Shown piece after piece: positions 25,770 to 43,565 of a DNA stretch of 64,000 bases (position 1 is the stretch's first letter; every line of letters begins with the position of its first letter). The stretch is taken from assembly GCA_958295645.1 (NCBI GenBank), contig OY282361.1:1144501-1208500 (forward strand), written 5' to 3'. A model generated the notes under the pieces. It had not been told where the DNA came from, did not search any database, and saw only the letters and a list, made by a program, of their open reading frames with translations. The translations under genes and the position numbers were made by a program. Origin of the DNA: Longimicrobiales bacterium. Lineage in GTDB: Bacteria; Gemmatimonadota; Gemmatimonadetes; Longimicrobiales; Gaopeijiaceae.

Positions 25770-27776
25770 GGTTCGCCAGGCGGAGAAGCAAGCCCGCCGA
25801 CGGTTCGCGGTGGGACGCTCGTGGTCCCTTTCCACAACCAAGACCTCCCCGAGTACTGGCCCGTGGATATCGTCTTCAGCAGCACGTTCGGAATGGGCGC
25901 CCGCATCAGGCACGTCTCGTCCAATCGGACCCCGTGGCGCTCGAACGGAAACCACTGTTGCAAATAGCCGTAGAGCACCCGATCCGGAGGCAGGTCCCCG
26001 GCGCTTGCCGGCACGGTGTGAAGAAAGAAGTGCGCACGCGTGTCGGAACGGCTGCACGGCTCCTTCACATACGTCAGGCCGTCCGGTTCGACGTAGACGT
26101 CGTATACGGAACGGATGGCCGGCGTGCCCGCCACGGCCGATTCGTACGCCTGCCGATACCGTCTTGCCGTCGGATCGTCCTCCGGCAGGGCCACCATCGC
26201 CACCTCCATGATCGTGCTGTTGTACACCTTGCGGCTGTGGATCACGGGTCCGTACAACGGCCGCCATCCCGAAAAACCGCGATCGACGTAGATGCTTGCC
26301 ACGAAGTCCGCCCCTTCGGCGAACACTAGGCGCTCGCGCTGCTCCGGCCGCAGAATTGTCCGGTTGCGTTGAATTTCGGCCCCCTCGGCCTGCACGTTGA
26401 TCCGCCGGTTCGGGTAGCGGGCCAGCAAGAACTCCAGCGCCTCGCGGTACGGCTCGTCCCAATACGCCATCTCGTACTGTTGGGCCAACTGCTCGGGCGC
26501 GCCCTTGTCCACCAACGCGTTGAAGTAGAGCGCCTCGTACGGATGCAGCCGGACCATGGCGGCCACCGTCCAGACGACGCCGAGCCCCGCCAAGCAATAG
26601 AGGCCCGCCTTCGCCCTCGGCCTGCGCAACGCCGACGCCGTCCAATGCAGGCCCGCGCCCGCCAGCAACGCGAACGGGGCATGGATGAAGTAGAGATGCC
26701 GCCATCCGTTGAAGAGCGTGGGCCGAAGAATCATCACCGCCGCAACCGGCGCCAAGAAGCAGCCCGCGACCAACAGCAGGAACCGCAGGCGGCCGCTGCG
26801 AAGCGCCTCGCGCGGACGCGCCGCGGCCTTGGCCAAGACGAGCGCCGTGCCCAGCAGGCCCAAGACCAGCGCCACCGGCGGCGTCGTGACCCCGAACCAG
26901 ACCGGCACGTAGCGCCTCGGCAAGTCGTAGCTCGACACTCGCTGGCCCTGAAACAACTCGTGCAGCGGGTTGGGGTGATCCGCCGCGACCGCAAACGCCT
27001 CGGCGAGCCCGCCCAGGGGATCGTGCCACAGATAGGGCCAGGTCGCGTAGAGACAGGCCGCGCAGGCCAGCAAGAAAGCGCCGCACGCCAGAAGAACGCG
27101 CCTTCGCTCCTCCGCTCCGCGCGCCAAGACGACGTCGCACAGTTGCAGGGCCACGACGCCGCCGACCAGCGCCACGCCCATGATCCGCATGGAGACGAGC
27201 AGGCCCGCGGCCGCGCCGGCGAGCGCGAACGACCGCCACGTGCCCCGGTCGAACGCGCGCCAAGCCCAGAAGAGAGCGATCATGAACATCGCCGCGAACG
27301 GAACGTCCTTCGAGTTGAAGAACGAATGCGCGTACAACCGAGGATGAAGCAGGAACATCAGCAACGCGAGCAGCGCCGCCGCCCGGCTGCCGGTCAAGCG
27401 ATGCGCCAAGAGCGCGCAGAAGAATCCTCCCAGAAGAAAGAACAAGTGCGACAGCAGGTGCCGGGCGAGGTGGACGCCGCGCGTGTCCTCCAGTCCCAGA
27501 ACGCCTTCGGAGAGGAACCACAGCGGAAGCTCGAACGCCACCCCCTGGATGCGGTCGAAGTCGTCCATCATGTCGGTGTTCTCGCCCGTGACGTAGTCGG
27601 CGGCCCGGACGGCCATTTGGCGCCTGCGGTGCTCGTCCGTCGACACGCCGTAGTCGTCGACTGCCGCAACGCCCACTACTGCGAAGAGGAGACACGCGGC
27701 GAGCCAGACCAGCGCCGGCCGGCGACGGAGCGCCGCGCCGAGACCGCTGGACGCGAAGAGGGCCCCGCGGCTCACG
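24037..27776. repeat. Tandem duplication, period 2006 bp (family I glycosyltransferases)
   Basis: Arms of about 1.73 kb at 24037-25770 and 26043-27776 are nearly identical at the DNA level, with differences concentrated in two short patches in the C-terminal coding part. Outside the arms the two genes diverge strongly. Confidence 0.9.
25766..27775 (-). CDS. Polytopic glycosyltransferase (GT-C/PMT-like), family I copy 2
   Basis: Tandem twin of the adjacent gene, 2006 bp away. It has the same membrane architecture, with STDEH in the first loop and HSFFNSKDVPF. The 669-residue protein diverges from its twin around residue 460 (INVQAEGAEIQRNRT against IHMQARSDVVQFSRE) and in the last 80 residues, while the helices differ at only a few positions. 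It starts at GTG 27773-27775, overlapping the stop of the family II remnant (GTGA). This overlap is probably the original junction between family II and family I genes. Confidence 0.83.
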   Translation of the reverse strand: MSRGALFASSGLGAALRRRPALVWLAACLLFAVVGVAAVDDYGVSTDEHRRRQMAVRAADYVTGENTDMMDDFDRIQGVAFELPLWFLSEGVLGLEDTRGVHLARHLLSHLFFLLGGFFCALLAHRLTGSRAAALLALLMFLLHPRLYAHSFFNSKDVPFAAMFMIALFWAWRAFDRGTWRSFALAGAAAGLLVSMRIMGVALVGGVVALQLCDVVLARGAEERRRVLLACGAFLLACAACLYATWPYLWHDPLGGLAEAFAVAADHPNPLHELFQGQRVSSYDLPRRYVPVWFGVTTPPVALVLGLLGTALVLAKAAARPREALRSGRLRFLLLVAGCFLAPVAAVMILRPTLFNGWRHLYFIHAPFALLAGAGLHWTASALRRPRAKAGLYCLAGLGVVWTVAAMVRLHPYEALYFNALVDKGAPEQLAQQYEMAYWDEPYREALEFLLARYPNRRINVQAEGAEIQRNRTILRPEQRERLVFAEGADFVASIYVDRGFSGWRPLYGPVIHSRKVYNSTIMEVAMVALPEDDPTARRYRQAYESAVAGTPAIRSVYDVYVEPDGLTYVKEPCSRSDTRAHFFLHTVPASAGDLPPDRVLYGYLQQWFPFERHGVRLDETCLMRAPIPNVLLKTISTGQYSGRSWLWKGTTSVPPRTVGGLASPPGEP

Positions 27777-28541
27777 GTTCGCCAGCATTGCAGGGCTCCG
27801 CTGCCGACGGCTCGCGGCCAAGCACGCCGGCCGGCGCCAAGTCGTCCTGCCCGGCTCGTGTCGGCTCGGCGGGCCAGTACGCCATGCGAAAGACCTTCCC
27901 GCCCGAGGTGTCCGCCGCTACGCAGTAGTCGTGGCCGCCCTGCCCGAGCAGATGCGCCACGTGTGCGGCATCAAAAAACTCGTCCCACGCCTTGGGGTTC
28001 GTCATTGGGCGCCAGGCGTGCCGTCGTACGTGCTCCAGGCGTGCCAGAACGAACGAGACGCGTAGTCCACCACCGTCGTCACCTCGTCGGTCCGCAGGGG
28101 CAACGTCAGATTGCGCGCCGCCAGCGCCAAGCCGACGCCGATCGCAACCGCCGCGAAAGCGGACTCCGTCCAGGTGACGCGCGCGACCCCCGGGCGGCCG
28201 ACATCGGGAGAGGCCGCGAACAGAGGCTCAAGACCGCGCCGAAGCGCCAACATTCCGGCCCCCAAGACCACGGAGGCGACCGCCAGTTCGCGGAGCAGAC
28301 CCACGACTACGGCGTCGGACGGGCCCTCCAACACGAACACGCTGCCGTCCGGCGACAGCCAATCCACGAAGTCGCGGACCCTCCCGACCCCCCACTGAGC
28401 AACGACGACCGAGCCCGCAGCCGCCGCGACCAGCGCCCATCCTGCCGCGGCCACGCCTCGAGCAAGACGGGCATCCCGCCCGAGCTCCCCCCCGTCCGTC
28501 ACTCCGGTCCGCCGGACTCGAGAAGTCGTGTCGCCGCTCAC
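27772..28541 (-). pseudogene. Internally deleted family II glycosyltransferase
   Basis: The 179-residue N-terminal piece (28002-28541) matches the start of the family II genes at 29.5-38.8 kb through WHAWSTYDG. The C-terminal piece (27772-28005, 77 residues) matches their end from NPKAWDEFFDAAHVA to the stop. More than 400 codons between are missing, and the junction shifts frame, ending the first part with a TGA that overlaps the ATG of the second (ATGA). The start is GTG 28539-28541, fifteen bases past trxA. A seven-G run at 28488-28494 lies near the start. Both pieces could still be translated, but neither can be a working transferase. Confidence 0.88.
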
Positions 28542-28555
28542 CCGGTTCGGGACGC

Positions 28556-28888
28556 CTACAAGTGCTGTTCGATCTTCTGCTCGAGGTGCGCCTTCGGCAC
28601 AGCGCCCACCACGGTGTCCACAAGCTTTCCGCCCTTGAAGAAGAGGATGCTCGGGATCGAACGAACGCCGAAGCGAACCGGCGTCGACTGGTTCTCGTCG
28701 ACGTTGAGCTTGCCGACCCGCATCCTGCCCGCAAAGTCGTCCGCGATCTCGTTCACGACCGGCCCCACCATCCTGCAGGGCCCGCACCACTCGGCCCAGA
28801 AGTCCACCATCGACAAGCCTGCGCCGTCCTCGATCTGGTCGACGAAGTTGTCGTCGGTGATCGTCACTACGTTCGTGCCTTCCGCCAT
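28556..28888 (-). CDS. trxA: Thioredoxin
   Basis: Cytosolic thiol-disulfide reductase of 110 residues. The active site is FWAEWCGPCRM, the cis-proline loop is RSIPSILFF, and FKGGKLVDTVVGA ends the fold. The ATG 28886-28888 is preceded by GGAGAAGCAGAGG. The same promoter, RBS and first 18-20 codons recur, fused to other sequence, in the three repeat junctions to the right. It is divergent from mce and followed within 15 bases by the deleted glycosyltransferase. Confidence 0.96.
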   Translation of the reverse strand: MAEGTNVVTITDDNFVDQIEDGAGLSMVDFWAEWCGPCRMVGPVVNEIADDFAGRMRVGKLNVDENQSTPVRFGVRSIPSILFFKGGKLVDTVVGAVPKAHLEQKIEQHL

Positions 28889-29013
28889 CCTCTGCTTCTC
28901 CGTTTTGTCGGGACGCGGTTGGGCGCGCCCTGCGCCCGGCCCGCGTGCGCTCCGCGTTGCCACAAGCTATTGTAAAGATATCCGTTCCCGCGCTTCACCT
29001 GCCCGGCCCCTCC
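28889..29013. promoter_or_regulatory. Divergent trxA/mce promoter region
   Basis: A 125-bp spacer with the only AT-rich stretch nearby. On the minus strand TACAAT at 28969-28974 is a good -10 for trxA, with a leader of about 75 bases; the -35 is weak. The rsmI upstream region keeps TACAAT at 39789-39794. The three array junctions have TACAAC instead. Confidence 0.5.
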
Positions 29014-29421
29014 ATGTCCACAAGACCGGTCGCGCCGGCGTTGCGGCTGGACCACGTCGCCGTCGCCGTCGCCTCGCTGAAAGACGCGCTGCCCGCGTTC
29101 GAGCGCCTTGCGGGGCGCCCGGCGGAGTCGCCGCAACGGGTCGAGCCGCAGGGGGTGGACATCTGCTTCGTCGGCCGCCTCGAACTCCTGGCGCCTTTTC
29201 GGGCGGGCAGCCCTGTCGCCCGGTTCCTGGAGCGGCGCGGGCCCGGTCTTCACCACATTGCGTACCGGACGGACGACTTGACCGCGCTGATGCGGCGCTT
29301 GGCGGACGAGGGCTGCGAGTTCACCTCTGCGGAACCCATGACCGGAGCGGGCGGCCACCGGGTCGCGTTCGTGCACCCGCGATCCACGGGCGGCGTGCTC
29401 GTCGAACTGGTCGAGAAGTAG
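29014..29421 (+). CDS. mce: Methylmalonyl-CoA epimerase (VOC family)
   Basis: Converts (S)- to (R)-methylmalonyl-CoA in propionyl-CoA use; cytosolic and metal-dependent. Metal ligands are recognisable in LRLDHVAVAV, GPGLHHIAYR and the C-terminal VLVELVEK. The length of 135 residues from the ATG at 29014 is normal; an upstream ATG at 28945 would reach into the trxA leader. There is no convincing SD. The left half exists only here; the right half (from 29212) recurs three times in the array, and a further two-ended remnant lies at 39835. Confidence 0.9.
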   Translation: MSTRPVAPALRLDHVAVAVASLKDALPAFERLAGRPAESPQRVEPQGVDICFVGRLELLAPFRAGSPVARFLERRGPGLHHIAYRTDDLTALMRRLADEGCEFTSAEPMTGAGGHRVAFVHPRSTGGVLVELVEK

Positions 29422-29503
29422 CCTGCCCAGGGCGGTTTCCTGCGCCGGCGAAGCGCCCGAGCCCGGTCCGATCTCTGAGCGCGAAGAAGACCTCGCGGCT
29501 CAC
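29321..29503 (-). pseudogene. Remnant of a family I glycosyltransferase start, antisense to mce
   Basis: The GTG at 29501-29503 overlaps the copy A stop as GTGA and opens a 60-codon frame starting MSREVFFALRDR. Its first 24 bases match the family I start (MSRGALFAS) with about three changes; after that the similarity stops. Identical remnants follow copies B, C and D at 31746-31928, 34170-34352 and 36594-36776. I read it as the trace of a lost family I gene rather than a real product. Confidence 0.5.
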
Positions 29504-31545
29504 GGATCGCTGCCAGCATCGCAGGGCTCCGCTGCCGGCGGCTCGCGGCCAAGCACGACGGCCGGCGCCAAGTCGTCCTGTCCGCCTCGCGTCGGCCCGG
29601 CGGGCCAGTACGCCATGCGAAAGACCTTCCCGCCCGAGGTGTCGGCCGCTACGCAGTAGTCGTGGCCGCCTTGCCCGAGCAGACGGGCCACGTGCGCGGC
29701 CTCGAGCAACTCGTCCCAGGCCGTGGGGTTCGCCATTGGACGCCAGGCGGGCGAGTTCGCCTCGTCGTCGATGAACACGAAGAAGCGAGCGGCGCGGCCC
29801 CCGCCCTCCCCGCCGCCGATTTGGCTGATCCAGGTCTTCCCGTTGCCCAGAAAGGGGACGATGACGGGGAGGCTCACCGCGTGCCCCGCCTCCGACAGGT
29901 AGACGGCGATCAGTCTGCTCGTCGTCCGGGTGGCCGCGACATAGTCGCCCGGCTCCAGCTCCGCCGCGACCGCAGCAACAAGAGCCGCCGCGTTCGGGGA
30001 GTTGGTCGTCTCCCGGGCGAACCGCTCCTGCACTCCAGGTCGTGTGGCCCACACGGCGAACATGCCCGCGACGGCCAACACGCCGGCAACGCGCATGGCC
30101 TGAGGCGCCCGGCCCCTCAATTTCGGCAGCGCCCGCCCCAGTGCGGCCTCCCACAGCACGGCGGCCCCGGCGCCCGCCAAGACCATCGACACGAACAACA
30201 GGAAGAGCGTCATGCGCGGATCCAGCACAACCGGCCGCACGAGAAGAACCGCTCCCATCCCGGCCACGGCAGCGGCGGCGAGCAGGCCGCCGCGACCCGT
30301 CCGCCGACCGGGCACGGCCACGCCCGCCGCCAACGCCAACGCCAACGCCACCTGGGCCCACGCGGGCGTCGCCGCGTGCCATTTGACCCAGGCGACCGTA
30401 TGCATTGCCACGAACCGATGTCCACCGGGCACGGCATCTGGTTGCACGAAGCGGTTGTTCAGCAGAGCGTCGGGTCCAGCGCCGGCCAACACGGGCGCGT
30501 AGAGCAGCGCCGCCAAGCCCAGCGCCGCGCCCGACCACGCCGCCGCCTTCAAGGCGAACCGCGGCAGCGCCCCAGCGCCCCGCTCCCGCCAGCACAGGAG
30601 AAGCATCCAGCAGACCGCCACCGCCGCAGGAAGCACCATCAGCGGCATGACGAAGAACCCCAGCCCCACCGCCCCCGCGTACCCCGCCCACCATCGCCCC
30701 GCCTCCGGCCGCCTCGCCGCCTCGCTCCCGCACGCCATGGCCAGCACGAAGCACAGCAGCATCAGCGTGTACCCCCGCGCGTTCGAAGCGTACTCCACGA
30801 ACAGCGGCGACGTCCCCAGCAGCGCCGTCGCGAATCCCGCCGCAAGTCGTCCGTGCTCTCGCCGCACGAACCACCACGTCGCCGCAAGCGCCGCAACGGC
30901 CGCCAGGAACGCCGGCATCCTGAGCGCCACCGGGTCCCAGCCGCCCAGCCGATGCGCAACCCAGACCAGCAACGTGTGCAGGACATGGTTGTTCGGCACG
31001 TCGTACGTGCTCCAGGCGTGCCAGAACGACTGGGACGCGTAGGACAGCACCGTCGTCGCCTCGTCGGTCCGCATGGGCAACGTCAGGTTGCGTGCCGCCA
31101 GCGCCACGCCGGCGCCGATCGCAATCGCCGCGAAGGCGGCGTCCGTCCACGTGACGCGCGCGGCCTCCGGGCTACCGGGATCGGGAGAGGCCGCAAGCAG
31201 AGGCCCAAGACCACGCCGAAGCGCCAACATCCCGGCCCCCGAGACCGCTGAGGCGACCGCCAGTTCGCGGAGCAGGCCCGCGACCACGGCGTCGGACATG
31301 CCCTCCAACACGAACACGCTGCCGTCCGCCGACAGCCATTCCGCGAGGTCGCGAACCCTCCCGACCCCCCACTGAGCAACGACGGCCAAGCCCGCAGCCG
31401 CCGCGACCAGCGCCCATCCCGCCGCGGCCACGCCTCGAGCAAAGCGCGCATCCCGCCGCAGCGGCGCTCCCCCCTCCTCGCCGCCCTCGATCTGGTCGGC
31501 GAAGTTGTCGTCGGTGATCGTCACTACGTTCGTGCCTTCCGCCAT
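29500..31545 (-). CDS. TrxA-leader::glycosyltransferase fusion, family II copy A
   Basis: A polytopic GT-C/PMT-like glycosyltransferase of 681 residues whose first 18-20 residues (MAEGTNVVTITDDNFADQIE) are those of the neighbouring thioredoxin. The join is in frame through EGGEEGGAPLRRDARFARG to the transferase. Family features are TLPMRTDEATTVLSYA (likely catalytic acids in the first loop) and YASNARGYTLMLL, about eleven hydrophobic helices, and a C-terminal domain ending HDYCVAADTSGGKVFRMAYWP. A six-G run at 31469-31474 in the linker sets the frame. The start, SD and part of the promoter are copies of trxA's. Sugar and acceptor are unknown. Confidence 0.8.
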   Translation of the reverse strand: MAEGTNVVTITDDNFADQIEGGEEGGAPLRRDARFARGVAAAGWALVAAAAGLAVVAQWGVGRVRDLAEWLSADGSVFVLEGMSDAVVAGLLRELAVASAVSGAGMLALRRGLGPLLAASPDPGSPEAARVTWTDAAFAAIAIGAGVALAARNLTLPMRTDEATTVLSYASQSFWHAWSTYDVPNNHVLHTLLVWVAHRLGGWDPVALRMPAFLAAVAALAATWWFVRREHGRLAAGFATALLGTSPLFVEYASNARGYTLMLLCFVLAMACGSEAARRPEAGRWWAGYAGAVGLGFFVMPLMVLPAAVAVCWMLLLCWRERGAGALPRFALKAAAWSGAALGLAALLYAPVLAGAGPDALLNNRFVQPDAVPGGHRFVAMHTVAWVKWHAATPAWAQVALALALAAGVAVPGRRTGRGGLLAAAAVAGMGAVLLVRPVVLDPRMTLFLLFVSMVLAGAGAAVLWEAALGRALPKLRGRAPQAMRVAGVLAVAGMFAVWATRPGVQERFARETTNSPNAAALVAAVAAELEPGDYVAATRTTSRLIAVYLSEAGHAVSLPVIVPFLGNGKTWISQIGGGEGGGRAARFFVFIDDEANSPAWRPMANPTAWDELLEAAHVARLLGQGGHDYCVAADTSGGKVFRMAYWPAGPTRGGQDDLAPAVVLGREPPAAEPCDAGSDP

Positions 31546-31636
31546 CCTCTGCTTCTCCGTTTGTCGGGACGCGGTCGGGCGCGCCCTGCGCCCGGCCCGC
31601 GTGCGCTCCGCGTTGCCACAAGCTGTTGTAGGACAT

Positions 31637-31846
31637 CCTGTCGCCCGGTTCCTGGAGCGGCGCGGGCCCGGTCTTCACCACGTCGCGTACCGGACGGACG
31701 ACTTGACCGCGCTGATGCGACGCTTGGCGGACGAGGGCTGCGAGTTCACCTCTGCGGAACCCATGACTGGAGCGGGCGGCCACCGGGTCGCGTTCGTGCA
31801 CCCGCGATCCACGGGCGGCGTGCTCGTCGAACTGGTCGAGAAGTAG
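31637..31846 (+). pseudogene. mce 3' fragment (array junction 1)
   Basis: Matches the intact mce from PVARFLERRGPGLHH to the stop. The 5' half is replaced by the trxA leader at the join GGACAT/CCTGTCG. No proper start codon precedes it, and the N-terminal metal ligand is lost. Confidence 0.92.
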
Positions 31847-31924
31847 CCTGCCCAGGGCGGTTTCCTGCGCCGGCGAAGCGCCCGAGCCCGGTCCGATCTC
31901 TGAGCGCGAAGAAGACCTCGCGGC

Positions 31925-33856
31925 TCACGGATCGCTGCCAGCATCGCAGGGCTTCGCTACCGACGGCTCGCGGCCAAGCACGACGGCCGGCGCCAAGTCG
32001 TCCTGTCCGCCTCGTGTCGGCCCGGCGGGCCAGTACGCCATGCGAAAGACCTTCCCGCCCGAGGTGTCGGCCGCTACGCAGTAGTCGTGGCCGCCTTGCC
32101 CGAGCAGACGGGCCACGTGCGCGGCCTCGAGCAACTCGTCCCAGGCCGTGGGGTTCGCCATTGGACGCCAGGCGGGCCAGTTCGCCTCGTCGTCGACGAA
32201 CACGAAGAAGCGAGCGGCGCGGCCCCCGCCCTCCCCGCCGCCGATTTGGCTGATCCAGGTCTTCCCGTTGCCCAGAAAGGGGACGACGACGGGGAGGCTC
32301 ACCGCGTGCCCCGCCTCCGACAGGTAGATGGCGATCGGCTTGCTGGTCGGGTCAGGGGCCGCGACGTAGTCGCCCGGCTCCAGCTCCGCCACGACCGCGG
32401 CAACAAGAGCCGGCGCGTTCGGGGAGCCAAACGCCTCCCGGGCAAAATGGCCCGCCACTCCAGGTCGCGTGGCCCACCCAGCGGATATGCCCGCGACGGC
32501 CAACACGCCGGCAACGCGCATGGCCTGAGGCGCCCGGCCCCTCAATTTCGGCAGCGCCCGCCCCAGTGCGGCCTCCCACAGCACGGCGGCCCCGGCGCCC
32601 GCCAAGACCATCGACACGAACAACAGGAAGAGCGTCATGCGCGCCTCCAGCACAACCGGCCGCACGAGAAGAACCGCTCCCATCCCGGCCACGGCGGCGG
32701 CGAGCAGGCCGCCGCGACCCGTCCGCCGCCCGGGCGCGGCCACGCCCGCCGCCAACGCCACCGCCAACGCCACCTGGGCCCACGCGGGCGTCGCCGCGTG
32801 CCATTTGACCCAGGCGACCGCCGTATGCTTTACCAGGAACCGATGTCCCCCTGGCACGGCATGCGCTTGCACGAATTGGTTGTTCAGCAGAGCGTCGGGC
32901 CCAGCGCCGGCCAGCACGGGCGCGTAGAGCAGCGCCGCCAAGCCCAGCGCCGCGCCCGACCACGCCGCCGCCTTCAAGGCGAACCGCGGCAGCGCCCCAG
33001 CGCCCCGCTCCCGCCAGCACAGGAGAAGCATCCAGCAGACCGCCACCGCCGCAGGAAGCGCCATCAGCGGCATGACGAAGAACCCCAGCCCCACCGCCCC
33101 CGCGTACCCCGCCCACCATCGCCCCGCCTCCGGCCGCCTCGCCGCCTCGCTCCCGCACGCCATGGCCAGCACGAAGCACAGCAGCATCAGCGTGTACCCC
33201 CGCGCGTTCGAAGCGTACTCCACGAACAGCGGCGACGTCCCCAGCAGCGCCGTCGCGAATCCCGCCGCAAGTCGTCCGTGCTCTCGCCGCACGAACCACC
33301 ACGTCGCCGCAAGCGCCGCAACGGCCGCCAGGAACGCCGGCATCCTGAGCGCCACCGGGTCCCAGCCGCCCAGCCGATGCGCAACCCAGACCAGCAACGT
33401 GTGCAGGACATGGTTGTTCGGCACGTCGTACGTGCTCCAGGCGTGCCAGAACGACTGGGACGCGTAGGACAGCACCGTCGTCGCCTCGTCGGTCCGCATG
33501 GGCAACGTCAGATTGCACGCCGCCAGCGCCACGCCGACGCCGATCACGACCACCGCGAAGGCGGACTCCGTCCAGGTGACGCGCGCGGATTCCGGGCGGC
33601 CTGAGTCGGGAGAGGCCGCGAGCAGAGGCCCAAGACCGCGCCGAAGCGCCAACATCCCGGCCCCCGAGACCGCTGAGGCGACCGCCAGTTCGCGGAGCAG
33701 GCCCGCGACCACGGCGTCGGACATGCCCTCCAACACGAACACGCTGCCGTCCGCCGACAGCCATTCCGCGAGGTCGCGAACCCTCCCGACCCCCCACTGA
33801 GCAACGACGGCCAAGCCCGCAGCCGCCGCGACCAGCGCCCATCCCGCCGCGGCCAC
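31925..33856 (-). CDS. Family II glycosyltransferase copy B, trxA leader out of frame
   Basis: Same polytopic transferase as copy A (TDEATTVLSYA, YASNARGYTLMLL). The linker here has five G instead of six (33894-33898), so a ribosome starting at the trxA-type ATG (33967-33969) reads a 141-codon nonsense frame. The nearest start in the transferase frame is the internal GTG at 33854-33856, which gives 643 residues and begins at VAAAGWALVAAAAG, just before the first helix. The transferase frame itself is open further upstream, so the gene is otherwise intact. Whether it is expressed, silent or frameshifted cannot be told from sequence. Confidence 0.7.
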   Translation of the reverse strand: MAAAGWALVAAAAGLAVVAQWGVGRVRDLAEWLSADGSVFVLEGMSDAVVAGLLRELAVASAVSGAGMLALRRGLGPLLAASPDSGRPESARVTWTESAFAVVVIGVGVALAACNLTLPMRTDEATTVLSYASQSFWHAWSTYDVPNNHVLHTLLVWVAHRLGGWDPVALRMPAFLAAVAALAATWWFVRREHGRLAAGFATALLGTSPLFVEYASNARGYTLMLLCFVLAMACGSEAARRPEAGRWWAGYAGAVGLGFFVMPLMALPAAVAVCWMLLLCWRERGAGALPRFALKAAAWSGAALGLAALLYAPVLAGAGPDALLNNQFVQAHAVPGGHRFLVKHTAVAWVKWHAATPAWAQVALAVALAAGVAAPGRRTGRGGLLAAAVAGMGAVLLVRPVVLEARMTLFLLFVSMVLAGAGAAVLWEAALGRALPKLRGRAPQAMRVAGVLAVAGISAGWATRPGVAGHFAREAFGSPNAPALVAAVVAELEPGDYVAAPDPTSKPIAIYLSEAGHAVSLPVVVPFLGNGKTWISQIGGGEGGGRAARFFVFVDDEANWPAWRPMANPTAWDELLEAAHVARLLGQGGHDYCVAADTSGGKVFRMAYWPAGPTRGGQDDLAPAVVLGREPSVAKPCDAGSDP

Positions 33857-34060
33857 GCCTCGAGCAAAGCGCGCATCCCGCCGCAGCGGCGCTCCCCCTC
33901 CTCGCCGCCCTCGATCTGGTCGGCGAAGTTGTCGTCGGTGATCGTCACTACGTTCGTGCCTTCCGCCATCCTCTGCTTCTCCGTTTGTCGGGACGCGGTC
34001 GGGCGCGCCCTGCGCCCGGCCCGCGTGCGCTCCGCGTTGCCACAAGCTGTTGTAGGACAT

Positions 34061-34270
34061 CCTGTCGCCCGGTTCCTGGAGCGGCGCGGGCCCGGTCTTC
34101 ACCACGTCGCGTACCGGACGGACGACTTGACCGCGCTGATGCGACGCTTGGCGGACGAGGGCTGCGAGTTCACCTCTGCGGAACCCATGACTGGAGCGGG
34201 CGGCCACCGGGTCGCGTTCGTGCACCCGCGATCCACGGGCGGCGTGCTCGTCGAACTGGTCGAGAAGTAG
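34061..34270 (+). pseudogene. mce 3' fragment (array junction 2)
   Basis: Same fragment as the first junction, 2424 bp further on. It lacks the first half and any usable start. Confidence 0.92.
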
Positions 34271-34348
34271 CCTGCCCAGGGCGGTTTCCTGCGCCGGCGA
34301 AGCGCCCGAGCCCGGTCCGATCTCTGAGCGCGAAGAAGACCTCGCGGC

Positions 34349-36280
34349 TCACGGATCGCTGCCAGCATCGCAGGGCTTCGCTGCCGACGGCTCGCGGCCA
34401 AGCACGACGGCCGGCGCCAAGTCGTCCTGTCCGCCTCGTGTCGGCCCGGCGGGCCAGTACGCCATGCGAAAGACCTTCCCGCCCGAGGTGTCGGCCGCTA
34501 CGCAGTAGTCGTGGCCGCCTTGCCCGAGCAGACGGGCCACGTGCGCGGCCTCGGGCGACTCGTCCCAGGCCGTGGGGTTCGCCATTGGACGCCAGGCGGG
34601 CCAGTTCGCCTCGTCGTCGACGAACACGAAGAAGCGAGCGGCGCGGCCCCCGCCCTCCCCGCCGCCGATTTGGCTGATCCAGGTCTTCCCGTTGCCCAGA
34701 AAGGCGACGACGACGGGGAGGCTCACCGCGTGCCCCGCCTCCGACAGGTAGACGGCGATCGGCTTGCTGGTCGGGTCAGGGGCCGCGACGTAGTCGCCCG
34801 GCTCCAGCTCCGCCACGACCGCGGCAACAAGAGCCGGCGCGTTCGGGGAGCCAACCGTCTCCCGGGCAAAATGGCCCGCCACTCCAGGTCGCGTGGCCCA
34901 CCCAGCGGATATGCCCGCGACGGCCAACACGCCGGCAACGCGCATGGCCTGAGGCGCCCGGCCCCTCAATTTCGGCAGCGCCCGCCCCAGTGCGGCCTCC
35001 CACAGCACGGCGGCCCCGGCGCCCGCCAAGACCATCGACACGAACAACAGGAAGAGCGTCATGCGCGCCTCCAGCACAACCGGCCGCACGAGAAGAACCG
35101 CTCCCATCCCGGCCACGGCGGCGGCGAGCAGGCCGCCGCGACCCGTCCGCCGCCCGGGCGCGGCCATGCCCGCCGCCAACGCCACCGCCAACGCTACCTG
35201 GGCCCACGCGGGCGTCGCCGCGTGCCATTTGACCCAGGCGACCGCCGTATGCTTTACCAGGAACCGATGTCCCCCTGGCACGGCATGCGCTTGCACGAAT
35301 TGGTTGTTCAGCAGAGCGTCGGGCCCAGCGCCGGCCAGCACGGGCGCGTAGAGCAGCGCCGCCAAGCCCAGCGCCGCGCCCGACCACGCCGCCGTCTTCA
35401 AGGCGAACCGCGGCAGCGCCCCAGCGCCCCGCTCCCGCCAGCACAGGAGAAGCATCCAGCAGACCGCCACCGCCGCAGGAAGCGCCATCAGCGGCATGAC
35501 GAAGAACCCCAGCCCCACCGCCCCCGCATAGCCCGCCCACCATCGCCCCGCCTCCGGCCGCCTCGCCGCCTCGCTCCCGCACGCCATGGCCAGCACGAAG
35601 CACAGCAGCATCAGCGTGTACCCCCGCGCGTTCGAAGCGTACTCCACGAACAGCGGCGACGTCCCCAGCAGCGCCGTCGCGAATCCCGCCGCAAGTCGTC
35701 CGTGCTCTCGCCGCACGAACCACCACGTCGCCGCAAGCGCCGCAACGGCCGCCAGGAACGCCGGCATCCTGAGCGCCACCGGGTCCCAGCCGCCCAGCCG
35801 ATGCGCAACCCAGACCAGCAACGTGTGCAGGACATGGTTGTTCGGCATGTCGTACGTGCTCCAGGCGTGCCAGAACGACTGGGACGCGTAGGACAGCACC
35901 GTCGTCGCCTCGTCGGTCCGCATGGGCAACGTCAGATTGCACGCCGCCAGCGCCACGCCGACGCCGATCACGACCACCGCGAAGGCGGACTCCGTCCAGG
36001 TGACGCGCGCGGATTCCGGGCGGCCTGAGTCGGGAGAGGCCGCGAGCAGAGGCCCAAGACCGCGCCGAAGCGCCAACATCCCGGCCCCCGAGACCGCTGA
36101 GGCGACCGCCAGTTCGCGGAGCAGGCCCGCGACCACGGCGTCGGACATGCCCTCCAACACGAACACGCTGCCGTCCGCCGACAGCCATTCCGCGAGGTCG
36201 CGAACCCTCCCGACCCCCCACTGAGCAACGACGGCCAAGCCCGCAGCCGCCGCGACCAGCGCCCATCCCGCCGCGGCCAC
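34349..36280 (-). CDS. Family II glycosyltransferase copy C, trxA leader out of frame
   Basis: Nearly identical to copy D in its body (shared KTAAWSG, AAGMAAPG, RETVGSPN and ESPEAAH where B has KAAAWSG, AAGVAAPG, REAFGSPN and ELLEAAH), but with the B-type junction upstream. The five-G run at 36318-36322 puts the trxA-type start (36391-36393) out of frame, as in B. The internal GTG at 36278-36280 is the first start in frame and gives 643 residues. The patchwork of C/D bodies and B-type leader points to unequal crossing-over or gene conversion inside the array. Confidence 0.7.
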   Translation of the reverse strand: MAAAGWALVAAAAGLAVVAQWGVGRVRDLAEWLSADGSVFVLEGMSDAVVAGLLRELAVASAVSGAGMLALRRGLGPLLAASPDSGRPESARVTWTESAFAVVVIGVGVALAACNLTLPMRTDEATTVLSYASQSFWHAWSTYDMPNNHVLHTLLVWVAHRLGGWDPVALRMPAFLAAVAALAATWWFVRREHGRLAAGFATALLGTSPLFVEYASNARGYTLMLLCFVLAMACGSEAARRPEAGRWWAGYAGAVGLGFFVMPLMALPAAVAVCWMLLLCWRERGAGALPRFALKTAAWSGAALGLAALLYAPVLAGAGPDALLNNQFVQAHAVPGGHRFLVKHTAVAWVKWHAATPAWAQVALAVALAAGMAAPGRRTGRGGLLAAAVAGMGAVLLVRPVVLEARMTLFLLFVSMVLAGAGAAVLWEAALGRALPKLRGRAPQAMRVAGVLAVAGISAGWATRPGVAGHFARETVGSPNAPALVAAVVAELEPGDYVAAPDPTSKPIAVYLSEAGHAVSLPVVVAFLGNGKTWISQIGGGEGGGRAARFFVFVDDEANWPAWRPMANPTAWDESPEAAHVARLLGQGGHDYCVAADTSGGKVFRMAYWPAGPTRGGQDDLAPAVVLGREPSAAKPCDAGSDP

Positions 36281-36484
36281 GCCTCGAGCAAAGCGCGCAT
36301 CCCGCCGCAGCGGCGCTCCCCCTCCTCGCCGCCCTCGATCTGGTCGGCGAAGTTGTCGTCGGTGATCGTCACTACGTTCGTGCCTTCCGCCATCCTCTGC
36401 TTCTCCGTTTGTCGGGACGCGGTCGGGCGCGCCCTGCGCCCGGCCCGCGTGCGCTCCGCGTTGCCACAAGCTGTTGTAGGACAT

Positions 36485-36694
36485 CCTGTCGCCCGGTTCC
36501 TGGAGCGGCGCGGGCCCGGTCTTCACCACGTCGCGTACCGGACGGACGACTTGACCGCGCTGATGCGACGCTTGGCGGACGAGGGCTGCGAGTTCACCTC
36601 TGCGGAACCCATGACTGGAGCGGGCGGCCACCGGGTCGCGTTCGTGCACCCGCGATCCACGGGCGGCGTGCTCGTCGAACTGGTCGAGAAGTAG
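36485..36694 (+). pseudogene. mce 3' fragment (array junction 3)
   Basis: Third copy of the truncated mce end, identical in layout to the other two. Confidence 0.92.
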
Positions 36695-36772
36695 CCTGCC
36701 CAGGGCGGTTTCCTGCGCCGGCGAAGCGCCCGAGCCCGGTCCGATCTCTGAGCGCGAAGAAGACCTCGCGGC

Positions 36773-38776
36773 TCACGGATCGCTGCCAGCATCGCAGGGC
36801 TTCGCTGCCGACGGCTCGCGGCCAAGCACGACGGCCGGCGCCAAGTCGTCCTGTCCGCCTCGTGTCGGCCCGGCGGGCCAGTACGCCATGCGAAAGACCT
36901 TCCCGCCCGAGGTGTCGGCCGCTACGCAGTAGTCGTGGCCGCCTTGCCCGAGCAGACGGGCCACGTGCGCGGCCTCGGGCGACTCGTCCCAGGCCGTGGG
37001 GTTCGCCATTGGACGCCAGGCGGGCCAGTTCGCCTCGTCGTCGACGAACACGAAGAAGCGAGCGGCGCGGCCCCCGCCCTCCCCGCCGCCGATTTGGCTG
37101 ATCCAGGTCTTCCCGTTGCCCAGAAAGGCGACGACGACGGGGAGGCTCACCGCGTGCCCCGCCTCCGACAGGTAGACGGCGATCGGCTTGCTGGTCGGGT
37201 CAGGGGCCGCGACGTAGTCGCCCGGCTCCAGCTCCGCCACGACCGCGGCAACAAGAGCCGGCGCGTTCGGGGAGCCAACCGTCTCCCGGGCAAAATGGCC
37301 CGCCACTCCAGGTCGCGTGGCCCACCCAGCGGATATGCCCGCGACGGCCAACACGCCGGCAACGCGCATGGCCTGAGGCGCCCGGCCCCTCAATTTCGGC
37401 AGCGCCCGCCCCAGTGCGGCCTCCCACAGCACGGCGGCCCCGGCGCCCGCCAAGACCATCGACACGAACAACAGGAAGAGCGTCATGCGCGCCTCCAGCA
37501 CAACCGGCCGCACGAGAAGAACCGCTCCCATCCCGGCCACGGCGGCGGCGAGCAGGCCGCCGCGACCCGTCCGCCGCCCGGGCGCGGCCATGCCCGCCGC
37601 CAACGCCACCGCCAACGCTACCTGGGCCCACGCGGGCGTCGCCGCGTGCCATTTGACCCAGGCGACCGCCGTATGCTTTACCAGGAACCGATGTCCCCCT
37701 GGCACGGCATGCGCTTGCACGAATTGGTTGTTCAGCAGAGCGTCGGGCCCAGCGCCGGCCAGCACGGGCGCGTAGAGCAGCGCCGCCAAGCCCAGCGCCG
37801 CGCCCGACCACGCCGCCGTCTTCAAGGCGAACCGCGGCAGCGCCCCAGCGCCCCGCTCCCGCCAGCACAGGAGAAGCATCCAGCAGACCGCCACCGCCGC
37901 AGGAAGCGCCATCAGCGGCATGACGAAGAACCCCAGCCCCACCGCCCCCGCATAGCCCGCCCACCATCGCCCCGCCTCCGGCCGCCTCGCCGCCTCGCTC
38001 CCGCACGCCATGGCCAGCACGAAGCACAGCAGCATCAGCGTGTACCCCCGCGCGTTCGAAGCGTACTCCACGAACAGCGGCGACGTCCCCAGCAGCGCCG
38101 TCGCGAATCCCGCCGCAAGTCGTCCGTGCTCTCGCCGCACGAACCACCACGTCGCCGCAAGCGCCGCAACGGCCGCCAGGAACGCCGGCATCCTGAGCGC
38201 CACCGGGTCCCAGCCGCCCAGCCGATGCGCAACCCAGACCAGCAACGTGTGCAGGACATGGTTGTTCGGCATGTCGTACGTGCTCCAGGCGTGCCAGAAC
38301 GACTGGGACGCGTAGGACAGCACCGTCGTCGCCTCGTCCGACCGCACCGGCAACGTCAGATTGCACGCCGCCAGCGCCACGCCGACGCCGATCACGACCA
38401 CCGCGAAGGCGGACTCCGTCCAGGTGACGCGCGCGGATTCCGGGTGGCCTGAGTCGGGAGAGGCCGCGAGCAGAGGCCCAAGACCGCGCCGAAGCGCCAA
38501 CATCCCGGCCCCCGAGACCGCCGAAGCGACCGCCAGTTCGCGGAGCAGGCCCACGACCCCGGCGTCGGACATGCTTTCCAGCACGCCCACGTTGCCTTTC
38601 GGCGAGAGCCATTCCGCGAGGTCGCGGATCGCCCCGACCCCCCACTGAGCAGCGACGGCCAAGCCCGCAGCCGCCGCGACCAGCCCCCATCCCGCCATGG
38701 CCACGCCTCGAGCAAGGCGCGCATCCCGCCCCACCCCGGCTCGCGCCGACGTCCCCCCCCTGCCCGCGCCCCTCAC
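36773..38776 (-). CDS. Family II glycosyltransferase copy D, probably the original gene
   Basis: Polytopic GT-C/PMT-like transferase of 667 residues with no trxA leader. It starts at GTG 38774-38776, overlapping the rsmI stop as GTGA, the normal junction style of this genome. The first loop reads LPVRSDEATTVLSYA. An eight-G run at 38753-38760 lies six codons after the start; as read, the frame is open. From about residue 145 on it is nearly identical to copy C, while the first 140 residues are clearly diverged (PKGNVGVLESMSDAG against ADGSVFVLEGMSDAV). The native start and rsmI coupling suggest this is the ancestor of the array. Confidence 0.82.
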   Translation of the reverse strand: MRGAGRGGTSARAGVGRDARLARGVAMAGWGLVAAAAGLAVAAQWGVGAIRDLAEWLSPKGNVGVLESMSDAGVVGLLRELAVASAVSGAGMLALRRGLGPLLAASPDSGHPESARVTWTESAFAVVVIGVGVALAACNLTLPVRSDEATTVLSYASQSFWHAWSTYDMPNNHVLHTLLVWVAHRLGGWDPVALRMPAFLAAVAALAATWWFVRREHGRLAAGFATALLGTSPLFVEYASNARGYTLMLLCFVLAMACGSEAARRPEAGRWWAGYAGAVGLGFFVMPLMALPAAVAVCWMLLLCWRERGAGALPRFALKTAAWSGAALGLAALLYAPVLAGAGPDALLNNQFVQAHAVPGGHRFLVKHTAVAWVKWHAATPAWAQVALAVALAAGMAAPGRRTGRGGLLAAAVAGMGAVLLVRPVVLEARMTLFLLFVSMVLAGAGAAVLWEAALGRALPKLRGRAPQAMRVAGVLAVAGISAGWATRPGVAGHFARETVGSPNAPALVAAVVAELEPGDYVAAPDPTSKPIAVYLSEAGHAVSLPVVVAFLGNGKTWISQIGGGEGGGRAARFFVFVDDEANWPAWRPMANPTAWDESPEAAHVARLLGQGGHDYCVAADTSGGKVFRMAYWPAGPTRGGQDDLAPAVVLGREPSAAKPCDAGSDP

Positions 38777-39642
38777 TCCGGCTCCGGCCGACGTCCCCGC
38801 GTGGCGCTCCGAACCGCGTCGTAGGCCGCCGCCCGAGTCGTCCCCGCGTGGCGGGCCACCACCTTCGCCGCCGGACCCGGCGCCAACCCAGCCTCCAGCA
38901 ACGCGCCCGCGAGGGCCCGCGCCTCCTCTCCGGCCTCCGCGCTGGCAGCGGCGACGGGCCGCCCCTCCACGACCACCGTCACCTCGCCCCTCGGCGCAAC
39001 CTCCCGGAAACGCCTCGCGCAGTCCCCGGCGCCCCCGCGCACGATCTCTTCGTGCACTTTCGTGAGCTCGCGGCAGACCGCCACGCGCCGCCCCGGCCCA
39101 GCCGCCGTCGCCAAGTCCTCCAGCGTGGCCGCCAAGCGCGCCGCCGATTCGAACAAGACCTGCGTCTCGCGGGCGGCGGCCAGCGCCGCCAGGGCCCTCC
39201 GCCGCGCCGCCCCCTTGCGAGGCAGGAATCCCACGAACGTGAACGGCGCGGCGGGCAACCCGGAGACGACCAGCGCCGCCAGCAGGGCCGACGGCCCCGG
39301 CACGGGCACAACGTCGTGCTCCGCCTCGGCCGCCGCCCTCACCAGCCGCTCCCCGGGATCGGACAGCAGAGGCGTGCCCGCATCCGACACCAAGGCCACG
39401 TCGCGGCCTCCTCCGAGCCAACCCAGCGCCTGCTCGGTCCGCCCAGCCTCGTTGTGGGCGTGAAGAGACAGGGGCCGTACCGCCGCCCCGGCGCGCTCCA
39501 GCAGAATCCGCGCTCGCCGGGTGTCTTCGGCCAGCACGTGCGAGGCCGACCGCAACACGCTCCGGGCTCGCTCTGTCAGATCGGACAGGTTGCCGATGGG
39601 AGTGGAGACAACGAAGAGCCTCCCTCCGGCTGCGCTCCCCAT
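38773..39642 (-). CDS. rsmI: 16S rRNA 2'-O-methyltransferase (C1402)
   Basis: RsmI methylates the 2'-hydroxyl of 16S rRNA C1402 with SAM. The tetrapyrrole-methylase-fold signature is clear: LFVVSTPIGNLSDLT, LAEDTRRAR, LVSDAGTPLLSDPGERLV, PVPGPSALLAALVVSGL and FVGFLPRKG. At 289 residues it has family size from the ATG at 39640-39642; a GTG at 39684 would add 14 residues. A TACAAT -10 at 39789-39794 (minus strand) is a plausible promoter. It is followed by family II copy D with a four-base overlap. Confidence 0.93.
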   Translation of the reverse strand: MGSAAGGRLFVVSTPIGNLSDLTERARSVLRSASHVLAEDTRRARILLERAGAAVRPLSLHAHNEAGRTEQALGWLGGGRDVALVSDAGTPLLSDPGERLVRAAAEAEHDVVPVPGPSALLAALVVSGLPAAPFTFVGFLPRKGAARRRALAALAAARETQVLFESAARLAATLEDLATAAGPGRRVAVCRELTKVHEEIVRGGAGDCARRFREVAPRGEVTVVVEGRPVAAASAEAGEEARALAGALLEAGLAPGPAAKVVARHAGTTRAAAYDAVRSATRGRRPEPE

Positions 39643-39834
39643 TACGACTTCGCTCGTGCGCCCCGCGGGCGCACAGGGACGCACCGAGGCGCCCCTGCGC
39701 GAGCCACGCGCACCACAGCGCCCACAGGCTTCGTCACCACGGTTCGCGCCTCCGCCACTCTCGGCTTCCTTCCGGGTTTCCGCAGGCTATTGTAAGGCAT
39801 CCGTTCCCGCGCTTCACCTGCCCGGCCCCCGGCC

Positions 39835-39935
39835 ATGCCCACGGGATCGGGCGCGCCGGCGTTGCGGCTGGCCCACGTCGCCGCCGTCGTCGCGCTCCAC
39901 GGGGTGGCCCGATCGTCGAGCTAGTCGAGAAGCAG
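39835..39935 (+). pseudogene. Two-ended mce remnant
   Basis: The leader and first 18 codons match mce (APALRLAHVA against APALRLDHVA, with the metal-site Asp-His neighbour changed). An internal deletion then joins directly to the last codons, where the mce stop has become CAG. The residual frame stops after 29 codons at 39922-39924. The upstream 50 bases, including CTATTGTAA and CCGTTCCCGCGCTTCACC, also match the trxA/mce spacer. Confidence 0.85.
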
Positions 39936-40541
39936 CCTGCCCAGGGCGATTTCCTGCACCAGCCAGGCGCCCGCGCCGGTCCGCACGACCACGACGGGCA
40001 GCGCAGGCACGCTTCGGCCCGCTACGTCCAGGTCGGCCAGCAGCCGGACGGTCTCGCCGGACCCGTCCGGAGGCCCCCGGCGGATCGCGAGGAGACTGGC
40101 GCGCTCGAGCACCGCCGCGATCAAGGCCATTCGCCGCAGCACGTCGGCCCGGGAGGGGCACGGGTCGCCGGCGCCGATCCACGACCCCAGCCTGCGAAGC
40201 GCGCAGCCCGCGCCCCCTTCCGCGGCCTCGCCCAGAGCGCCCTCCGCCGTGCCGAAGAGTCCGGCCATCGCCCAGTGGTCGCCCCGGCCGGCCGCCTCCA
40301 AGAACCGCGTCACCGCCTCCTCCGGGCCGCGCACCGGCGAAGGACGCTCCGCCGGCGTCGCGCCGACCGGCCCCGGCCCGGCCCCCGGCGCACAACCCGC
40401 GGCCCCCAGGACCAACACGCAGACCAGCGCCGCCACCCGCACCCAGGCCGGCGCCGGCCTCCTCGCCCCGCCCCCTGCGGACCCCGCCTCCGCCGACCGC
40501 CGAAACCCACACGGCGCAGACCCGCGCCCGAGTCCCCTCAC
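39921..40541 (-). CDS. Lipoprotein of unknown function
   Basis: A 206-residue protein with a signal sequence and lipobox (VCVLVLGAAGC). A domain with EEAVTRFLEAAGRGDHWAMAGLFG follows, the shape of an NTF2-like/DUF4878 fold, then VVRTGAGAWLVQEIALGRLLLD. I cannot assign a function. It starts at GTG 40539-40541, overlapping the clpB stop (GTGA). Its last four codons lie on the strand opposite the mce remnant's tail, so the original mce and this gene converged with overlapping ends. Confidence 0.7.
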   Translation of the reverse strand: MRGLGRGSAPCGFRRSAEAGSAGGGARRPAPAWVRVAALVCVLVLGAAGCAPGAGPGPVGATPAERPSPVRGPEEAVTRFLEAAGRGDHWAMAGLFGTAEGALGEAAEGGAGCALRRLGSWIGAGDPCPSRADVLRRMALIAAVLERASLLAIRRGPPDGSGETVRLLADLDVAGRSVPALPVVVVRTGAGAWLVQEIALGRLLLD

Positions 40542-43153
40542 CCCTCCGCTCGCCCCGCCGGCCCCGCAACCGGCCTGAACTCCAGGCCCTCCGACCCCGG
40601 CCTCTCCACGAGCTCCACGGCGGCTCCCGGCGCCAGCGTGCCGTCGAGCATCTCGAGCGCCAAGGGGTCCTGCACCCACCGCTGCACCGCCCGCTTGAGC
40701 GGCCGCGCCCCGTAGGCGGGATCGAATCCCTCGCGGGCGACGCGCACCCGAGCGCCGTCCGACACCGCGAGCGCGATGCCCTGCTGGGCCGCCAAGTCCA
40801 CCACGCGAGCCAGCTGGAGCTTCACGATCTGCTCGATCTCGGCCTCGCCCAGGGGCCGGAACACGACCACGTCGTCCACCCGGTTGAGAAATTCGGGGCG
40901 GAACTGCTCCCGCAGCCTGAACTGCACCATTCTCTCCACCTCTTCCCACGGATCGCGAGCCGCGCGCGCCAGGATCTCCGTCCCCGCGATGTTCGACGTC
41001 ATGACGATCACGGCCTGCCGGAAGTCCACCGTGCGTCCCTGCGCGTCCGTCAGCCGCCCGTCGTCCAGCACCTGCAGGAAGACGTTGAAAACCTTGGGGT
41101 GGGCCTTCTCCATTTCGTCCAGGAGGATCACCGAGTGCGGCCGGCGGCGAACCGGCTCCGTCAGCTGGCCGCCCTCCTCGTAGCCCACGTAGCCCGGCGG
41201 CGCGCCCAGGAGCCGCGACACCGCATGCGCCTCCATGTACTCGGACATGTCCAGGCGCACCATGGCCCGCTCGTCGTCGAAGAGGAACTCGGCGAGAGCG
41301 CGGGCCGTCTCGGTCTTGCCCACGCCCGTCGGCCCCAGAAAGAGGAAGGAGCCCGCCGGCCGATTCGGGTCCTGGATGCCCGCACGAGCGCGCCGGACGG
41401 CTCTGGACACCGCGCTCAGCGCCTCCGCCTGTCCCACGACCCGCCGCCCCAGCAGCCCCTCGAGTCCCGCAAGCCGCCGCCGCTCCGACTCCATGAGACG
41501 GGTCACGGGAATCCCCGTCCATTCTGCGAGCACCTCGGCCACGTCTTCCGCGGTCACCTCTTCCTTGAGGAACTTTCCCTCCGCCTGGAGCCCGGCCAGG
41601 CGCTTCTCGGCCCCGGCGATCTCGTTCAGCGCCCCCGGAATCTCCGAATACTGGATTTCCGCCGCGCGATCGAGCTCGCCCCGCCGCGTGGCCCCGTCCT
41701 TCTCGGCGCGCAGGCCCTCCACCCGCTCCTTGAGCTTCTGGATGCGCAGGATTTCCTTCTTCTCCGCCTGCCAGCCCGCCTTCATCCCCTGGCTCGACTC
41801 GCGCAGGTCCGCCAACTCGGCGGCGATCCCGCCCAGGCGCTCCTTGGCGCCCGCCTCCTCCTCGCCCGACAACGCCTGCCTCTCGATCTCCAGCTGCACG
41901 ATTCTGCGCTCCACCTCGTCGATTTCCTCGGGAAGCGACTCGATCTCGATGCGCAGGCGGCTGCCGGCCTCGTCCATCAAGTCGATCGCCTTGTCGGGCA
42001 GGAAGCGCCCGCCCACGTAGCGATCCGACAGTCTGGCGGCGGCGATCAACGCATCGTCAGTGATGCGCACGCCGTGATGGACCTCGTAGCGCTCCTTGAG
42101 GCCGCGCAGGATGGCGATGCTGGCCTCGACCGAGGGCGGCGCGACGAAGACGGGCTGGAAGCGGCGCTCCAGGGCCGGATCCTTCTCCACGCGCCTGCGG
42201 TACTCGTCGAGCGTGGTCGCGCCCACGACGCGCAGATCGCCTCTGGCCAGGGCCGGCTTGAGCATGTTTCCCGCGTCCATCGCGCCCTCCCCTGCGCCCG
42301 CGCCCACCAGCGTGTGCATCTCGTCCACGAACAGGACGTAGCGCCCGTCCGCGCGGTTCACGTCCTCCAGCGCCGCCTTCATGCGCTTCTCGAAGTCGCC
42401 GCGGTACTTCGCTCCAGCCAGCATGGCGGCAACGTCCAGCGCGGCCAGCGTCTTGCCCTGCAAGGAGCCCGGCACGTCCCCGTCCGCGATCCGCTGCGCC
42501 AAGCCCTCGGCGATGGCGGTCTTGCCCACGCCCGCTTCGCCGATCAGCACGGGATTGTTCTTGGTGCGGCGCCCGAGCACCTTGATCAGGCGGCGGATCT
42601 CGTCGTCCCGCCCGATGACCGGGTCGAGCTTGCCGCGCCGGGCCATGTCGGTCAGGTCGCGGGAGTAGCGGGCGAGCGCCTGGAACCTCTCCTCGGGGCT
42701 CTGGTCGACGACCCGGTGCGACCCCCGGACCGCTTCCAGCGCGGCCTCCACGCGTTCGGCAGTCGCTCCGTTGGCGCGAAGAACGCGAGCCGCCTCGCCC
42801 GTGGAGGCCGCCAGTCCGAGGAGCAGGTGCTCGGTCGACACGTAGGCGTCCCCAAGGCGGGCCGCCGCCTGCTCCGCCCCGTCCAAGGCCGCCGTCAGGC
42901 CAGGCGAGGCGCCCGGCCTGCCCCCCGTGAGGCGCGGCAGCTTCTCCATGGCGCTCTCCACGGCCGAGGCCACTTGTCCCTCCGGCGCTTCCATCTTCCG
43001 AAGCACCGGCAGCACGACGCCGTCCTCCTGCTCCAGCAGGGCCTTCAGCAGGTGGATGCCGCGGGTCTCCGGGTGCTCCCGGCGGCGGGCTTCGGCGACG
43101 GCGCCCGCCAGGGCCTCCGCGGCCTTGATCGTCAGTCGATCCTTTGCAGTCAT
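40538..43153 (-). CDS. clpB: ClpB disaggregase chaperone
   Basis: Hsp100 AAA+ disaggregase that rescues aggregated proteins with DnaK. At 871 residues it has full length: the N-terminal Clp repeat domain ([25 protein letters not shown]), AAA1 with [15 protein letters not shown], the coiled-coil middle domain at about 405-525, AAA2 with [19 protein letters not shown], and the D2-small domain ending [25 protein letters not shown] sits six bases before the ATG 43151-43153. Three palindromes lie 90-190 bases upstream and probably control it. Confidence 0.97.
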
Positions 43154-43565
43154 TGGTTCCTCCGTCTTGTTTCAAGTGCGATTTCGGTGTGCGTCTTTCC
43201 TCGGACGGCGGGGCCGGACGCCTACTCCACGGCTGCTGCGACGCCTGCCATTTTGGCAGGACATGGAGCCGTCGCCGACCCGAAACCTGCCATTTTGGCA
43301 GGACTAGACGCTGGACGAGCCCGCAAGCCTGCCATTTTGGCAGAACCGGCGAAGGCGCCCGCCTCCGCCCTTCCTACCAATGAAAGAATCGGGCCAGCCG
43401 CCGGAGCCATGCCCTGCGCAGGCGTCCAGCGGCTCGCCGGCCCGCATCCGCGACGGCTTGACACTGCACGGCGCTTCATCCCAACGTGATTCCATCGGGC
43501 CTCTTCGCGCCCGCCGCGCCGGTCCCGAAGCGGATCGCCGTCACGCCCGCCCAAGGAAACCGCCG
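43154..43565. other. Divergent clpB / OPT-transporter intergenic region
   Basis: 412 bases without a credible gene. It contains the three palindromes (43245-43343), a clpB SD next to 43153, and a perfect TTGACA on the plus strand at 43458-43463 without a good -10. The segment 43385-43560 shows nothing else I can name. Confidence 0.6.
43245..43343. promoter_or_regulatory. Three identical 15-bp palindromes, 42 bp apart, upstream of clpB
   Basis: CTGCCATTTTGGCAG occurs at 43245-43259, 43287-43301 and 43329-43343. Each is an inverted repeat CTGCCA/TGGCAG around TTT. The 27-bp spacers are unrelated in sequence but equal in length, so the centres are exactly four helical turns apart and face the same side of the DNA. 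This is not CIRCE and not the HspR HAIR motif. A repressor or activator of clpB, or of both divergent genes, is the natural reading. Confidence 0.85.

Follow-up and report, generated by a model that had tools for sequence, protein, structure and literature searches.

Stepwise amplification suggested by a tandem array of membrane glycosyltransferase genes in a Longimicrobiales bacterium

Introduction

RecA-type tandem duplication and amplification is known by its direct repeats, by a founding junction whose homology is short or absent, by later expansion between long repeats and by chimeric units. In a related process, tandem duplication combined with promoter capture activates acquired genes (Zhang et al. 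2024 and work cited there; PMC11111574). Here we describe a natural locus that resembles both, found in a 64,000-nucleotide stretch of contig OY282361.1 that we call the window. It shares with RecA-type amplification all the features just named, a likeness judged by sequence only, and differs in that the steps appear fossilized in one locus, including the reciprocal loss of housekeeping genes. With promoter-capture duplication it shares a gene absent from the relatives' locus that lies beside a housekeeping promoter and whose tandem copies are joined to the leader; that system was engineered, whereas this locus is natural and its captured promoter is putative and looks altered. The mechanism is an ordinary, known one and not a new system, with an unusually readable and complete record. 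Its interest is that a stepwise natural amplification becomes legible, from founding duplication through reciprocal loss of essential neighbours and leader capture to expansion by crossing-over.

Results

The genome that holds the window is a single contig of 2.89 Mb. Direct repeats begin at 29212, 31637, 34061 and 36485, a head-to-tail series with the constant period (2425, 2424 and 2424 bp) of an array made by unequal crossing-over, and self-BLAST aligns 29212-36306 with 31637-38730 at 98.2% identity over 7.1 kb, far beyond chance. The assembly does contain the array: four copies, A to D, of a PMT_2-type membrane glycosyltransferase gene (GT) lie on the minus strand, as an earlier note on this DNA had proposed in describing four near-identical transferase genes, head to tail, at 2424/2425-bp spacing. 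A DNA search of the genome found no array copies outside this region. Pairwise DNA identity is 96.57% for A-B, 96.32% for A-C, 94.0% for A-D, 97.24% for B-D, 97.81% for C-D and, at its highest, 99.46% for B-C. The note had ranked C and D as the closest pair; this fails over whole units and holds for the last 1857 alignment columns, where C and D are identical.

Each repeat is a composite. Read along the plus strand, units A-C carry ~210 bp from the end of mce, a short stretch where gene X, at its end, meets the first codons of PMT, then GT, and finally the first ~20 codons of trx with its leader. In unit A (29212-31636) these parts are the 3' half of mce (29212-29421, plus sense), the junction of the X 3' end with the PMT 5' end (~29422-29511), GT-A (29500-31545; 681 aa) and a trx 5' leader that follows GT-A and reaches ~31630. 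Unit B (31637-34060) has the same anatomy, its GT lying in the common reading frame of 650 codons (31925-33874), and unit C (34061-36484) contains GT-C at 34349-36298. Unit D (36485-38776) has the same mce 3' fragment after GT-D and no trx leader; GT-D (36773-38776) has a possible GTG start that overlaps the TGA stop of rsmI. Self-comparison and junction alignments locate mce and trx fragments in every unit, except for the leader absent from D, and beside rsmI. The pieces identified in the repeat unit are thus mce, trx and GT sequence with short X and PMT ends, and the view that no transposase is needed holds.

The flanks contain the intact counterparts of these fragments. Intact mce and trx lie at the left edge of unit A, just left of that edge or inside it: mce (29014-29421, plus strand) is a methylmalonyl-CoA-epimerase-like VOC gene that scores 112.8 bits against TIGR03081, whose cut-off is 114.95, and it is divergent from trx (28556-28888, minus strand), an intact thioredoxin gene (TIGR01068). 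Directly downstream of trx is a fifth GT copy, relic unit 0 (27752-28480, minus strand), ~90% identical to GT and with an internal deletion of ~1.25 kb. On the other side of the array stands rsmI (38773-39642, minus strand; TIGR00096), which encodes the 16S rRNA (cytidine(1402)-2'-O)-methyltransferase and is the only copy found in the genome. To its right, at 39771-39983 (minus strand), is a relic of a second mce/trx pair, made up of an internally deleted mce, of which the ends persist, and of a trx leader and start that have degenerated, and 83-85% identical to 28951-29075 and 29378-29470. The relic is overlapped by the 3' end of gene X, which supplies one duplication breakpoint; X lies in an open frame at 39921-41522 (minus strand) that has no Pfam family and an uncertain start, probably much further left.

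A second PMT-type transferase gene (PF02366/PF13231) is itself duplicated to the left of the array on the minus strand. The GTG start of its right copy (25766-27775) overlaps the end of GT relic 0, and the left copy (23721-25769) is a tandem duplicate at 2006-bp spacing and 96.3% DNA identity, self-comparison matching 23843-25779 with 25849-27785. The protein differences between the two copies gather towards the C-terminal part. The earlier note mentioned neither this pair nor relic 0 nor the mce and trx fragments, and it did not recognize the array as a copied segment of a housekeeping operon.

We compared the locus with 26 others, 20 from relatives (18 of the same family, 2 of the same order) and 6 from named Gemmatimonadota MAGs. 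The operon order in relatives is clpB-X-(mce<->trx)-rsmI-DUF4159-DUF4175: mce is divergent from trx and rsmI follows trx in 25 of the 26 loci, and DUF4159 follows rsmI in 23 (one contig ends there). At none of the 26 was a GT or PMT match found. The window has DUF4159 (22923-23717, minus strand) and DUF4175 just left of the PMT pair, and clpB and X right of rsmI; the content between rsmI and DUF4159 is therefore extra in this genome, with the DUF4159 gene as its left edge. The trx and rsmI genes, adjacent in most relatives, stand ~10 kb apart here, across the array, which suggests that this housekeeping pair can be separated by 10 kb without loss of function. Among named genomes, the best RsmI matches come from Gemmatimonadota MAGs, at 57-64% identity, which makes this phylum the probable one for the uncultured host. 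A 16S search of the genome found no gene, but it recovered those of control genomes only in part and was given no weight in this placement. For comparison of unit number, no second genome of the genus was found among the 121 family genomes searched.

All four GT copies match PF13231 PMT_2 above its curated cut-off (33.5-34.1 bits versus 26.1), which supports the predicted assignment as glycosyltransferases that the earlier note had made; sugar transfer from a polyprenyl-phosphate donor would be the activity expected of this family. Like the GT-C transferases of the PMT_2 (PF13231) and PMT (PF02366) families, whose curated cut-offs the genes here exceed, the transferase has many predicted helices and an aspartate-glutamate pair (RTDEA) in its N-terminal part. 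It differs from them in matching no NCBIfam family and in that its closest homologues found in the phylum are only 28-38% identical, over partial length. Such homologues are scattered and distant; at E<=0.001 they occur in 57 of 395 phylum genomes, a count that includes the query genome. The GT protein had no match in a scan of named genomes or in plasmids, and a sequence search found no solved-structure relative; a structure model from the four near-identical sequences had a mean pLDDT of 31.8, too low for use. The cassette was probably acquired by transfer, a reading drawn from its absence at the relatives' loci and its patchy, distant homologues and not from a tree.

The gene orders, fragments, junctions and chimeric unit C visible in the assembled sequence can be arranged into a single history, whose steps we infer to have run as follows. 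Two genes for membrane transferases of putative GT-C type, GT followed by PMT, would have come as a cassette to occupy the interval from rsmI to DUF4159. Next, mce-trx-rsmI-GT would have been copied in tandem, with one breakpoint in X at its 3' end and the other in PMT at its 5' end, after which the redundant housekeeping copies decayed reciprocally, leaving rsmI at the right end and mce and trx at the left, and the left GT copy decayed to relic 0. Two deletions in a middle copy may have taken out the 5' half of mce, the body of trx and rsmI, so that GT became fused to the leader, ribosome site and ~20 codons of trx. Further units would have arisen when the repeats of ~2.4 kb crossed over unequally: first B, whose 5' part is A-like and whose 3' part is D-like, and then C, from B and D. 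We assign a probability of roughly 0.78 to the whole account, from a GT-PMT cassette in a conserved operon through tandem duplication, reciprocal loss, leader capture and unequal crossing-over to raised transferase dosage.

Capture of the leader is seen at the trx-GT joints, where GT in units A-C is fused to the leader, ribosome site and ~20 codons of trx. The trx start is in frame with GT only in A, where the ATG and the first ~20 codons of GT-A are trx-derived and a tract of six G keeps the frame; in B and C the tract has five, and the trx ATG is one base out of frame. B and C would therefore need another start, and an ATG ~70 codons upstream lies in the GT frame in both. The tract difference (G6 at 31475, G5 at 33900 and 36324) may stem from sequencing error or from drift, or may mark a site of slippage. 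The -10-like element at trx, TACAAT, reads TACAAC in units A-C, which are identical there, and what precedes it is mce sequence. The captured promoter may therefore be weak; a scan for promoters of the consensus type found none. We infer that several GT copies are expressed, with D probably transcribed behind rsmI and A translated from the trx start, and that transferase dosage would thereby rise; C and B are perhaps expressed through read-through and internal starts.

The substitutions among copies bear on whether the extra units serve the cell. The synonymous fraction of changes is 0.29-0.37 (A-B, A-D and C-D) against 0.31 expected under neutrality, and no departure from the neutral synonymous/nonsynonymous pattern was found among the copies, so retention for function is weakly supported. 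The earlier note's functional reading, dosage gain or surface-glycan diversification, was not borne out by these near-neutral substitutions and by two copies lying off the trx frame. Either remains plausible but unproven, and by analogy with published cases of tandem amplification with promoter capture (PMC11111574) dosage gain would be the likeliest benefit of the array.

The near-neutral ratios also suit a rival in which the array is a by-product in decay: the cell would need just D, native and coupled to rsmI, while A-C drift towards loss. One copy is already a relic, B and C lie off the trx frame and the -10 element is changed in A-C. Against this, the 650-codon frames are open in all four copies, with in-frame length differences only in multiples of three, and the frames contain no stops where 117 neutral changes would be expected to give ~3.5 (P(0)=0.03, from a single simulation in which the number of changes was set by choice), a hint that the GT frames may have been kept. 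We consider decay a possible outcome, and the strongest of the rivals, that falls short of an even chance.

Growth by unequal crossing-over, the reading we prefer, is strongly supported by the way sequence differences are distributed among units. Units A, B and D are mosaics: B is identical to A over the first 423 columns except for the G-tract and mostly D-like beyond. Differences between A and B are clustered (variance/mean 6.0 in 100-bp bins), as are those of A-C, A-D and C-D (p<=0.0005 for all four pairs), and the same test found no clustering for B-C. Unit C joins its two neighbours in an exact chimera that switches once: in the alignment of units, its columns 1-637 are identical to B and its columns 572-2428 to D with zero exceptions, and the switch is confined to 66 bp where B, C and D agree. 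This pattern, which bears out the unequal crossing-over that the earlier note had named alongside conversion, is what a crossover of the D unit on one chromosome copy with the B unit on another would give, turning A-B-D into A-B-C-D, exactly the order observed. As a conversion donor for the patches of A we tried relic 0, which at A-private sites matches B, C and D 11 times and A 8 times and is therefore no clear donor.

An assembly chimera would look alike. If an assembler or polisher had joined the 5' part of B to the 3' part of D, unit C, or more, would be an expansion of the assembly and the genome would hold A, B and D. Consistent with this, nowhere in its 2424 bp does C differ from both neighbours at once, and its switch falls within the stretch common to all three units; a very recent unequal crossover would predict the same exact chimera. 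Private differences occur in each of A, B and D, and an array with a minimum of three full units plus a relic is therefore independent of C. The earlier note's dismissal of an assembly error thus holds for A, B and D and fails for C: the array claim does not need C, and the count of four rests on it. We think an expanded assembly unlikely, if less so than the readings that follow, and read support is called for wherever an assembled array contains a unit that is an exact chimera.

Returning to the benefit of the extra copies, a reading in which the transferases differ in their preferred acceptor or donor and selection keeps them different, diversifying surface glycans, appears improbable. It draws on the ~7-10% of residues that set A apart from B, C and D, which fall in patches, some of them in the C-terminal part. 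In codons 451-500 of A-B, however, pS (0.142) and pN (0.139) are both raised, which fits patches spared by conversion, the overall pattern does not differ from neutral, and the differences between C and D are confined to the N-terminal part. Diversifying selection is not supported. Still less credible, and very improbable in our estimation, is a living copy-number switch, in which crossing-over would often add or remove units, the G5/G6 tract would toggle the frame and the population would vary in dosage and surface glycans.

Arrays of this kind are not common in this genome, since twenty samples of 20 kb (400 kb in all) contained no direct repeat of at least 1 kb at 90% identity or more; direct repeats of at least 200 bp occurred in 4 of the 20. 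One local direct repeat outside the window (locus L141, 16219-18629) is 83-86% identical over 477 and 638 bp. Within the window, short tandem repeats lie at 7302-7470 (21-bp unit, ~7 copies) and 43244-43343 (42-bp unit, 2.4 copies), and at 46045-48277 a Peripla_BP_6 periplasmic binding protein domain forms a tandem pair of ~72% DNA identity within one 815-aa frame.
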